Of a DNA stretch of 49,691 nt, positions 45-46,085 are shown piece after piece. The stretch comes from Microcaldota archaeon (GTDB taxonomy: Archaea > Micrarchaeota > Micrarchaeia > Anstonellales > Bilamarchaeaceae): positions 1 to 49,691 of the forward strand of contig JAFGPA010000012.1 of assembly GCA_016926175.1 (NCBI GenBank). Reading direction: 5' to 3'. Position numbers and translations under genes: made by a program. Each line of letters begins with the position of its first letter. The stretch's first letter is position 1. The notes beneath the pieces are model-generated. The model was not told the DNA's origin, searched no databases, and was given only the letters and a program-made list of their open reading frames with translations.

Positions 45-687
45 ATGGGGTCTCTGTCCAAGATTATAAATGAAGAATTGGACAATGACCTTATGGGGGA
101 TGATGGAGTAAGTAACAAGAGGAATTTCAGGTAAACCAAGAAAAAGAATGCAGGTTTGTTTTTGTGGTAATTTAAAGTCTGAAACAAGATATAGGGAATA
201 TCTTCAAAAGCTGATAAAAAGTACTTTGAATGTTACTGGGTATTACCAAGAAAGGAAAAAGATCAACACTTACTACATAATCATAAACAGCGAAGGCATT
301 TTTGACTTATTTCATAGCAAATTCGATTTCCCCATAGGTTTCAAGAGTTTCTTTAATATTGAAAATTTCCCTAGATCGTGGAATCTCCAGAAACGCCTAA
401 TTAGAGGCATCTTTGACACAGATGGTTCGATTTTCTTTGATAAAGATCAGAGATATAAAAAACCGTATCCCATCTTAGACATAACTCTGAAAAACAAAGA
501 AGTATTGGATTGGATAGCTAAAATTTTACGCGGGCATAATTTCAAAGTAATAAGATATGGCAGGCATGTAAGATTAAAAGGAAGAGAAAACATTGGGAAT
601 TGGTTTAAAGAGATATCTCCTAAAAATGACTTACACGTAAGAAAGTATTCTAGATGGTTAATGGAATATTATGACAAGGGCCCGTAA
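45..687 (+). pseudogene. LAGLIDADG homing endonuclease, apparently frameshifted; the C-terminal two-thirds is the intact ORF 148-687
   Basis: ORF 148-687 contains LIRGIFDTDGSIFF (second LAGLIDADG motif). In another frame, ATG at 45 gives MGSLSKIINEELDNDLMGDDGVSNKRNFR*, resembling a degenerate first motif. The two parts join only by a frame change near nt 105-125. Confidence 0.65.
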
Positions 688-803
688 CTCAGTTTGGATA
701 GATTGAAGTAGTCACCATATTTGCTATTTCAAGTCTTAAGTGCTGTCCTCCTAATCCAAAAGGAGATAGACAGAAGTCGAGGGTTCAAATCCCTCCGGGC
801 CCG
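678..803 (+). tRNA. tRNA-Arg(CCT) with two introns: about 703-739 (D stem, 37 nt) and about 755-768 (anticodon loop, 14 nt)
   Basis: Acceptor GGGCCCG/CGGGCCC with discriminator G; D stem ACTC/GA|GT; anticodon stem CTGTC/GACAG around CTCCTAA; T arm GAGGG-TTCAAAT-CCCTC. Removing both introns leaves a 75-nt cloverleaf. Confidence 0.85.
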
Positions 804-3137: not shown

Positions 3138-4079
3138 ATGAAGCTATCCTCTCATGCATCCCCCCTCGAAAAAAGTGGCACCAGAAAGAAGAAATTCAGT
3201 GGGTATGAATGTAAAATCGATGATAATTTAGTTGGAAAAAAAGTAAATGACAGGTATCAGTTGATAGAAAAAATTGGAGAGGGGGGCTGTGGTAATATTT
3301 ACTGTGGTTATGATGAGGAAAAAAAGGATTTTGTAGCAGTTAAAATTGATATTGATGGTAAAGATCTTGTTGCTGAAGAAGCTGCAATCCTGTCCACTTT
3401 CAGCAATGAGAACATCGTAAGATACCTGGACCATGGAACATTTCATGGTAAGGCATTTATGGTAACTGAACTGCTTGAAGGAGAAAGCCTTGCAGACGCA
3501 ATGATGAATGGAATAAGCTGGGAACAGCTAAAGCAGGCAATCTCACAGGTTTGCACTGCACTTAAGGCAGTGCATCAGGCTGAATATGTCCACAGGGACA
3601 TAAAGCCGGGAAACATATTCCTTGCAATTAAGGATGGCGTACAGGTCGCAAAACTGCTTGACTTTGGCATAGCAAGGAAGGTTGGGGTTGATGAAGGGCC
3701 CTTAAAGGGCACCCCAACTTATATTGCACCAGAGGTTGGCTCGCAACTGCATTATGATCAGAGGGCAGACATCTATGCTCTCGGATCCATAATGTACAGG
3801 GCCCTCTGCGGAACTGCACCTTTCATTGGAGAGTTCCTGGAGGTTCTGATCAGAAGCCTGAAGGAGGATCCCCTTCCTCCAAGCAAAAAAACTCCGGTAA
3901 GATCAATACCGCGTGAGATTGATGCGATTGTTCTTAAGGCAATGGCAAAAGAACCTGAAAACAGGTATCAGAATGTAGAAGAGCTTATGGCAGACCTAAT
4001 AAATTGTAAACACTCACCTAAGGAATTGGAACAACCGCCAATGGAAGCACCAACCAGGGCAGAAGCTGCTCATGGTTGA
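3138..4079 (+). CDS. Serine/threonine protein kinase, bacterial Pkn-like
   Basis: Glycine loop IGEGGCGNIYCG, VAVKIDI, YVHRDIKPGNIFL, KLLDFGIARK, GTPTYIAPE. Confidence 0.92.
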   Translation: MKLSSHASPLEKSGTRKKKFSGYECKIDDNLVGKKVNDRYQLIEKIGEGGCGNIYCGYDEEKKDFVAVKIDIDGKDLVAEEAAILSTFSNENIVRYLDHGTFHGKAFMVTELLEGESLADAMMNGISWEQLKQAISQVCTALKAVHQAEYVHRDIKPGNIFLAIKDGVQVAKLLDFGIARKVGVDEGPLKGTPTYIAPEVGSQLHYDQRADIYALGSIMYRALCGTAPFIGEFLEVLIRSLKEDPLPPSKKTPVRSIPREIDAIVLKAMAKEPENRYQNVEELMADLINCKHSPKELEQPPMEAPTRAEAAHG

Positions 4080-5239
4080 ATCCATTCTATTTCAAAATAT
4101 TCATAGTCGCTTCCAGGAAGATCGATTTTCTTGATTATGTAATGGGTAACGCTGCTTTCACGGTCACTGATTGCCATCATCATTTCCAGGCCAAAACATG
4201 AACACTCGGCCAGAGCCTGCGCCAGTTCATCGCCTCCTATATATTCATCCTCAGTAAGGGAATACATAAGATATTTGGGGGTTCCGTCTTTTGGAGTTTC
4301 AATGCCTCCCTTCTTTCTGTGATAGAGAAGAAAATCCAGCCTGGGTTTATCTGGATTGACTTTTACCTGGGTTTTCTTTCCGGGAATGGCAAGTATAAAT
4401 GTTTTTTTCACTGAATGGGCAACCCTTATTGCCCTGGACCATTCTGAGATGATCTGCTTGTGTTTTCTCGGGAAAACATGAATGACGTGCCTGGAATGCA
4501 TCCATTTGTCATCTGTTTTAAGCGGGGATGCCCCGGGGAAATAAAGCCGGAAATGGGTTCCAAACTTGAATCCGGTCTTTATTACATAGCCTCTTTTTCT
4601 CCAGTCTTCATAGACAGAGTAAAGGTCAGGGAAAAACATGATTCTTTTTTTTGCCAGTGCTTCGGCGTCTTTCAGTCTGGCATTGAGAAGATGAAGCTGG
4701 CCGTGGCGAAGAAGGTAGATGGTTTCAAAGATATCGAGCTTTCCTATCTTTCCCCTGTGGGATGCCTTGTATGTTCCGAACTGCCCTATCCAGTGCCGTT
4801 CATAGAGCTCCTTGGCAACTTTCTCATCATCTACAAGAGTGATAAGATCATAGGGAAAGAAAAGCCCGTCAAAGGAAAAGGAATCTACTTCAAAGCTGGA
4901 GCTTTCATATTTCAAAAGAATTGTCCTGCCATAATTTCCATCTGCCTCGTTTGTCGGCCTCAGAACCAGCCCTTTGTCCCTCCAGTCCTTGTAGGTAAGG
5001 TATTTTGCCAGCAGCTTCTTGTTTTTCAGGAACAGGGAGGCAACCTGGTTGAAAGTATAGTGGTTTCCCGATTTGTCAAAGCATCTGCCGTTCCTTATGT
5101 CCATTATATAGAGGGCTTCCTCTGGGGTGAGGGTAATTATTCCTTTGTTCATTGAACCGTAAAAACCGTTTTGCAGGGAAGAGACATCAGAAGGCTCTTT
5201 GACAAATATGGTTTTTCGGTCCAGCTCAAGTTTAATCAT
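4070..5239 (-). CDS. endA: tRNA-splicing endonuclease, apparent three-unit (epsilon-2-like) fusion
   Basis: 389 aa; catalytic-domain motifs VYEDWRKRGYVIKTGFKFGTHFRLYFPG, HSRHVIHV, AHSVKKTFILA (candidate triad Y233/H248/K279); additional N-terminal and C-terminal endonuclease-like units. Confidence 0.85.
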   Translation of the reverse strand: MIKLELDRKTIFVKEPSDVSSLQNGFYGSMNKGIITLTPEEALYIMDIRNGRCFDKSGNHYTFNQVASLFLKNKKLLAKYLTYKDWRDKGLVLRPTNEADGNYGRTILLKYESSSFEVDSFSFDGLFFPYDLITLVDDEKVAKELYERHWIGQFGTYKASHRGKIGKLDIFETIYLLRHGQLHLLNARLKDAEALAKKRIMFFPDLYSVYEDWRKRGYVIKTGFKFGTHFRLYFPGASPLKTDDKWMHSRHVIHVFPRKHKQIISEWSRAIRVAHSVKKTFILAIPGKKTQVKVNPDKPRLDFLLYHRKKGGIETPKDGTPKYLMYSLTEDEYIGGDELAQALAECSCFGLEMMMAISDRESSVTHYIIKKIDLPGSDYEYFEIEWIQP

Positions 5240-10605: not shown

Positions 10606-10897
10606 CGGGCCCGGGGGGAATTTCACAATTCTTAACGATCCTGATTTGAACCGTCTTTTTGATTTGAACCCCCGGCCTACAGCTGCCATCTGCTTCCGGC
10701 TTTCTGTTTCCTGCATCCCGAAGGAAGCCGGAGGGTCAAGGCCGGAAACATTAGAAGGCTGCCGCTCTATCCAAGTTGCTCCTGCAATTTAGCAGGCAGG
10801 TTTTGCCATGCTTCCCGATGGAAAGATATTTCTTTCCACGAGCGCGCCGAACAACGTCCGGTCGCGTTTACTAAAAAGCGGACTGAGCTACGGGCCC
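10606..10897 (-). tRNA. tRNA-Arg(TCT) with three introns: about 10774-10880 (D-loop, 107 nt), 10684-10750 (anticodon loop, 67 nt) and 10619-10661 (T-loop, 43 nt)
   Basis: Minus strand GGGCCCG-TA-GCTC-AGTC|...|TGGATA-GAGC-G-GCAGC-CTTCTAA|...|GCTGT-AGGCC-GGGGG-TTCAAAT|...|CCCCC-CGGGCCC-G. Spliced length is 75 nt with all stems paired. Confidence 0.85.
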
Positions 10898-17765: not shown

Positions 17766-17782
17766 ATCATCATCTCAAAAAT

Positions 17783-17889
17783 TGGGGTTACAGGGATTCG
17801 AACCCCGATATGCAGGTTACGGCCTCACATTGCCACATAAGCGGCGGGATCTGGAGCCTGCCGTACTAACCTGGTTATACTATAACCCC
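17783..17889 (-). tRNA. tRNA-Trp(CCA) with a 33-nt anticodon-loop intron (about 17817-17849)
   Basis: Acceptor GGGGTTA/TAACCCC, anticodon stem GCAGG/CCTGC around CTCCAGA, T arm CGGGG-TTCGAAT-CCCTG. Confidence 0.9.
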
Positions 17890-45885: not shown

Positions 45886-46085
45886 TGCAGGGAGCAGGAT
45901 TTGAACCTGCGAAGGCACTAAGCCGCAGGATTTCCCCTCAAGAAGTTTGATGGAACTTTACCCTTGGAGAAGTTTATCAAAAACATGAGAACAACTCATG
46001 AAGTTTGATGGAACTTTATCCTTGGAAAAACCTGGGGAAAGTTCCCTTAAGTCCTGCGCATTTGACCGGACTTTGCTATCCCTGC
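45886..46085 (-). tRNA. tRNA-Leu(TAA), class II, with a 114-nt anticodon-loop intron (about 45932-46045)
   Basis: Acceptor GCAGGGA/TCCCTGC, discriminator A; anticodon stem CAGGA/TCCTG around CTTAAG|A; T arm GCAGG-TTCAAAT-CCTGC. Spliced length 86 nt. Confidence 0.88.
45942..46026 (-). repeat. 27-nt direct repeat (GAAGTTTGATGGAACTTTAYCCTTGGA, plus-strand sense) at 45942-45968 and 46000-46026 within the tRNA-Leu intron
   Basis: 26/27 identical by eye. Confidence 0.95.

Follow-up and report, generated by a model that had tools for sequence, protein, structure and literature searches.

The endonuclease gene and the interrupted tRNA genes

The window, i.e., the whole analyzed stretch of 49,691 nucleotides from a Microcaldota archaeon of the family Bilamarchaeaceae, contains an intact open reading frame with an ATG start at positions 4070-5239 of the reverse strand, whose 389-aa product we assign to the epsilon-type (three-unit) tRNA-splicing endonucleases. 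A convergent serine/threonine-kinase-like ORF occupies positions 3138-4079 of the forward strand, and the 3' ends of the two genes overlap by 10 nt. Pfam analysis of the 389-aa protein revealed tRNA_int_endo (E 3.8e-29) and tRNA_int_endo_N (E 8.3e-10), each in two stretches. When all PDB chains were searched with phmmer, the best match was the ARMAN-2 enzyme (4fz2/9w2k; E 9.6e-125), in which chain residues 8-387 were aligned with residues 5-389 of the query, followed by the Methanopyrus enzyme (E 1.9e-22).

This full-length alignment and the predicted structure corroborated the alphaN-alpha-betaC architecture that had been proposed in the first-pass annotation. The alphaN unit (residues ~1-92, approximate boundary; positions 4964-5239, reverse strand) is defined by the tRNA_int_endo_N match at residues 3-47 and by the secondary structure of the AF2 model, and is followed by a linker (residues 93-111) that was modeled with low confidence. 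The catalytic alpha unit (residues ~122-290; 4370-4876, reverse strand) comprises the tRNA_int_endo match at residues 205-291 and an invariant Tyr-His-Lys triad, which is present in this middle unit only, as well as an ARMAN-specific loop, GTYKASHRGKIGK (residues 155-167; 4739-4777, reverse strand). The betaC unit (residues ~323-389; 4073-4273, reverse strand) had been described as an inactive endonuclease domain, and both the homolog alignments and the strands and helix of the model (residues 323-387) agree with this description.

The superposition on the ARMAN-2 endonuclease that had been suggested as a check was carried out with an AF2 model of moderate confidence (pLDDT 70.5, 8 sequences). 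The best solved match was 4fz2 (TM 0.87 over 395 columns). Because the alpha fold is common to alpha'2 and (alpha-beta)2 enzymes, an ordinary member of these types could have been mistaken for a three-unit protein; we consider the chance of this negligible. The full-length ARMAN-2 alignment reached E 1e-124, as against 1e-22 to 1e-20 for the other types, three units are recognizable, and alpha'2-type structures matched the model with a TM of only ~0.5. Moreover, the protein contains its own structural unit, betaC, which the catalytic alpha subunit of (alpha-beta)2 enzymes does not. Hence, neither the sequence nor the model displays an ordinary alpha'2 or (alpha-beta)2 architecture, and such an identity is refuted by both; a single polypeptide of ~390 aa in alphaN-alpha-betaC order, with a triad confined to the middle unit and a Tyr-Lys ARMAN loop, corresponds to the epsilon2 type.

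Four intron-bearing tRNA genes were found in the window using Rfam together with a scan for acceptor stem, box A and T-stem. The tRNA-Arg(CCT) gene (678-803, forward strand) has two introns, located in the D-arm (702-738) and in the anticodon loop (755-768), while tRNA-Arg(TCT) (10606-10897, reverse strand) has three, in the D-loop (10775-10881), the anticodon loop (10684-10750) and the T-loop (10619-10661); all these boundaries are approximate. A single anticodon-loop intron is present in tRNA-Trp(CCA) (17782-17889, reverse strand; intron 17817-17849; Rfam tRNA 52.5 bits) and in tRNA-Leu(TAA) (45886-46085, reverse strand; 114-nt intron 45932-46045; 41.7 bits). Thus, the earlier claim that multi-intron tRNAs are encoded in the same window as the endonuclease proved correct. 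The scan yielded 3 candidates in the window, whereas 40 dinucleotide-shuffled sequences gave 0.2 on average and never more than 2. ARAGORN applied to the unspliced window reported only a tRNA-Ser and did not detect the multi-intron tRNAs.

Some further features were noted at these genes. A 179-aa ORF (148-687, forward strand) with a weak but above-cut-off match to LAGLIDADG_3 (E 3e-5), and thus homing-endonuclease-like, overlaps the 5' end of tRNA-Arg(CCT) with its last 10 nt. The intron of tRNA-Leu(TAA) holds an imperfect direct repeat (CCAAGGATAAAGTTCCATCAAACTTC / CCAAGGGTAAAGTTCCATCAAACTTC), and the T-loop intron of tRNA-Arg(TCT) contains a repeat of the exon's own T-arm sequence, GGTTCAAATC.

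The splice sites in the D-arm and T-loop were set by restoring the cloverleaf. A rigid 4-bp scorer did not find a clean bulge-helix-bulge at every intron junction as placed, and it offered many sliding alternatives that left some splice sites unfixed; we therefore give the intron boundaries as approximate. The missing motifs could be taken as a sign that the Arg genes interrupted in the D-arm and T-loop have decayed and, hence, are not substrates of the endonuclease. We regard this as very improbable, since their in silico spliced forms fold into complete cloverleaves whose acceptor stems are perfect, and ARAGORN accepts all four spliced tRNAs, assigning the right anticodon to each. Additionally, at least 9 of the 19 tRNA matches above the Rfam threshold in the whole genome span 100 nt or more, and therefore introns are general in this genome.

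Conserved residues and the proposed splicing mechanism

In the middle unit, the residue numbering is offset by 3 from that of ARMAN-2, so that Y233, H248 and K279 correspond to Y236, H251 and K282 of that enzyme, whose residue roles are known from an RNA-bound crystal structure and from mutants (PMC12397907). All three residues are invariant in an alignment of 24 epsilon homologs, which, along with the match to the ARMAN-2 triad, confirms them as the catalytic candidates named in the first-pass annotation. K225, S249 and R272 are likewise invariant among the 24 homologs, and W386, the counterpart of ARMAN-2 W384, is kept in nearly all of them; in the ARMAN-2 enzyme, an Arg/Trp pair clamps the bulged base (PMC12397907). 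The Lys-containing specificity loop that had been postulated was also recovered: it aligns with the ARMAN-2 loop GTYKVSEHGNLNK, its residues G155, T156, Y157 and K158 are invariant in the same set, and Y157/K158 match ARMAN-2 Y160/K161, which hold the scissile phosphate (PMC12397907).

Since the residues needed for the mechanism are conserved, we adopt the ARMAN-2 mechanism for the protein described here, and it is very probable that the gene encodes the cell's catalytic epsilon2-type tRNA-splicing endonuclease working in this way. By analogy with ARMAN-2, two alphaN-alpha-betaC protomers would pair to create two active sites, in which Y233 would act on the 2'-OH, H248 would assist the leaving group and K279 would steady the transition state. 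The first bulged base would be clamped by R272 of one protomer and W386 of the other, while Y157 and K158 would keep the bulge in place, allowing relaxed bulge-helix motifs, e.g., those of the D-arm and T-loop introns, to be cut. The removal of these introns by the epsilon enzyme is what we infer from ARMAN-2 biochemistry. Ligation of the exons would follow, carried out by RtcB, a ligase encoded in the genome (E 2.8e-166).

A conserved one-unit paralog without the catalytic histidine

Besides epsilon, the genome encodes one further endonuclease-fold gene, a one-unit paralog of 157 aa located outside the window on another contig of the same genome (C2, L002:770-1243). The paralog was identified in 43/43 genomes of the family Bilamarchaeaceae (40 complete aligned copies and those of G012, G029 and G042), and in 42 of them it occurs beside epsilon, the exception being G009, a 62% complete genome without epsilon. 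ARMAN-2, searched up to E 10, gave epsilon only and no one-unit paralog, and the paralog was not found in the well-sampled families f12 and f13. Nor did we find a description of it in the papers that could be searched. Given this second gene, it may be that epsilon does not work on its own in this lineage.

By sequence, the closest solved relative of the paralog is the alpha4 enzyme of Methanocaldococcus jannaschii (1a79; E 1.3e-10). The AlphaFold model of the family is confident (pLDDT 88), and Foldseek again gave 1a79 as its best match (TM 0.78), together with the structural subunit of Nanoarchaeum equitans (3if0/3iey_B; TM 0.71-0.73). At the position of the catalytic His, 26 of the 40 aligned copies have Arg and the remaining 14 have Lys, and thus the complete Tyr-His-Lys triad of an alpha4 enzyme does not occur in any of them. 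The catalytic Lys is kept in all 40 copies, the Tyr position is taken by Tyr or His, the bulge-clamping Arg is lost or not conserved, and there is no ARMAN loop; where the catalytic His stood, a nearly invariant motif occurs, KGxRxGED[RK]T. From this residue pattern, the paralog is apparently catalytically inactive. We also considered whether a C-terminal Arg of the paralog is equivalent to the base-clamping Trp/Arg of known enzymes, and dropped this idea, as the alignments gave no confirmation. Pairwise dN/dS values of ~0.04 to 0.15 in the close-relative pairs tested indicate that the paralog is under purifying selection, and therefore that the gene is maintained.

In the genus of the window, the paralog is usually flanked by an RNase HI gene in divergent orientation and, on the downstream side, by a HerA-type helicase gene and an Elp3-type tRNA-modification gene; a cluster upstream of the paralog (C1) was not included among the genes, as it most likely represents RNase HI read in antisense. 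In all genomes of the genera g2 and g4, the paralog and epsilon lie within ~3 kb on the same strand. A common operon was rejected on account of a PF18894-type gene located between them on the opposite strand in several genomes.

In the tree, the paralog copies of families f1, f5, f6 and f10 cluster together with good support (99/91) and are separate from the epsilon alpha units (100/99). In families f15 and f28 there are one-unit copies that resemble ordinary alpha subunits: those of G241 (L131) and G220 (L132) have the full Tyr-His-Lys triad, and that of G067 differs in His to Arg only. As G241 and G220 also encode a complete epsilon, each of these genomes would possess two potentially active splicing endonucleases. 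Copies with the whole triad or with just the His to Arg change suggest a stepwise loss, and the triad-intact ones of these neighboring families, taken together with the His-less paralog, offer a natural series for studying how an active subunit may become a structural or regulatory one. However, the grouping of the f28/f15 copies with the f1/f5/f6/f10 clade is uncertain, and they therefore do not establish a stepwise loss within a single lineage.

What, then, is the role of the paralog? Possibly, it associates with epsilon as an additional structural subunit that tunes assembly or substrate choice, similarly to beta in the (alpha-beta)2 enzymes or to TSEN15/TSEN54 in eukaryotes. Such a role, which we put forward tentatively, is consistent with the presence of the paralog throughout the family, almost always alongside epsilon, with its one-unit endonuclease fold that matches both 1a79 and 3if0, and with purifying selection; the loss of His with retention of Lys is, moreover, the pattern of a non-catalytic subunit, and the proximity of the two genes in g2 and g4 points in the same direction. 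On the other hand, each epsilon already holds a structural betaC unit, and the ARMAN-2 enzyme, which has no paralog copy beside it, works without such a partner, which argues that the paralog is not needed for basic splicing. Furthermore, the intervening opposite-strand gene argues against a shared operon, and in the window's own genome the two genes are on different contigs.

Alternatively, the paralog would be a separate RNA-binding pseudoenzyme, i.e., a derivative of an alpha-type endonuclease that lost catalysis; its function would not be intron cutting but, for example, the chaperoning or protection of structured RNAs, tRNA among them. We give this explanation a little under an even chance of being correct. 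It would account for the absence of the ARMAN loop and of a conserved bulge-clamping Arg, for the new basic motif at the former catalytic His, for the f28/f15 copies with the full triad or with the single His to Arg change, and for the usual neighbors of the gene, which are RNase HI, HerA-type helicase and Elp3-type genes rather than epsilon. However, RNA binding is deduced here from basic residues only, and the uncertain grouping of the f28/f15 copies weakens the argument drawn from them. The co-occurrence and the pattern of residue loss fit both the subunit and the pseudoenzyme explanation.

Given the possibility of a subunit role, we speculate that Bilamarchaeaceae and related families have an undescribed endonuclease composition, in which a complete epsilon is accompanied by a conserved one-unit subunit, catalytically dead, that influences how the enzyme assembles or which substrates it chooses. 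We consider this rather unlikely; if true, a fifth type of subunit would stand between the enzymes of archaea and eukaryotic TSEN, which likewise relies on inactive endonuclease-fold subunits and in which non-catalytic partners are central.

Distribution of epsilon and comparison with known systems

With the ARMAN-2 epsilon as the query, matches were obtained in 287 of the 303 genomes of the phylum, including one genome (G054) whose epsilon is 100% identical to the query and which is, thus, ARMAN-2 or a near-identical genome. Because so many genomes match the ARMAN-2 protein, epsilon2 is, judging from these homology searches, the standard splicing endonuclease of the phylum; the three-unit form with its specificity loop is typical of nearly the whole phylum and no ARMAN oddity. 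Small genomes of the genus g24 carry a shortened epsilon of 277-293 aa. Three of them (G157, G169 and G180, L147-L149; family f6), 500-600 kb in size, encode an epsilon of ~280 aa from which the greater part of the alphaN unit is missing, and the one-unit paralog was not found in these three.

The enzyme type itself is not new. ARMAN-1 and ARMAN-2 have already been listed with multi-intron tRNAs and an epsilon2 enzyme (PMC4033280), and the presence of epsilon2 beside multi-intron tRNAs is known ARMAN-1/2 biology. With the gene described here, this well-studied enzyme type is extended to another order. The unexpected part is the paralog, i.e., the coexistence of a full three-unit enzyme with a conserved relative that lacks the catalytic His.

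The closest known system is the epsilon2 of ARMAN-2 (Candidatus Micrarchaeum acidiphilum; 4fz2/9w2k), which has the same length, unit order and triad (PMC12397907; PMC4033280), the same Tyr-Lys ARMAN-specific loop and the bulge-clamping Arg and Trp, and which likewise co-occurs with multi-intron tRNAs; about half of the residues are identical (46% in the structural alignment). The organism studied here differs in belonging to another order and family and in encoding, additionally, the one-unit paralog without His. In this respect it resembles the (alpha-beta)2 enzymes of Crenarchaeota, Nanoarchaeum and Methanopyrus, in which a catalytic protein is co-encoded with a non-catalytic one-unit relative; here, a putatively non-catalytic one-unit protein of the same fold accompanies epsilon in the family (paralog in 43/43 genomes, His absent in 40/40 copies). 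In the crenarchaeal (alpha-beta)2 enzymes, a Lys loop confers a broad range of substrates (PMC6379350). Unlike in the (alpha-beta)2 enzymes, however, epsilon holds its own structural unit, so that, in the ARMAN-2 sense, the enzyme is complete without the paralog. The M. jannaschii alpha4 enzyme (1a79), which is the closest solved relative of the paralog by both sequence and fold, has the full Tyr-His-Lys triad, whereas His is replaced with Arg or Lys in all 40 paralog copies. Finally, NEQ261 of N. equitans (3if0/3iey_B) is, at a size similar to that of the paralog, a non-catalytic one-unit endonuclease fold; NEQ261 completes an (alpha-beta)2 enzyme, whereas the paralog coexists with a complete epsilon protein.
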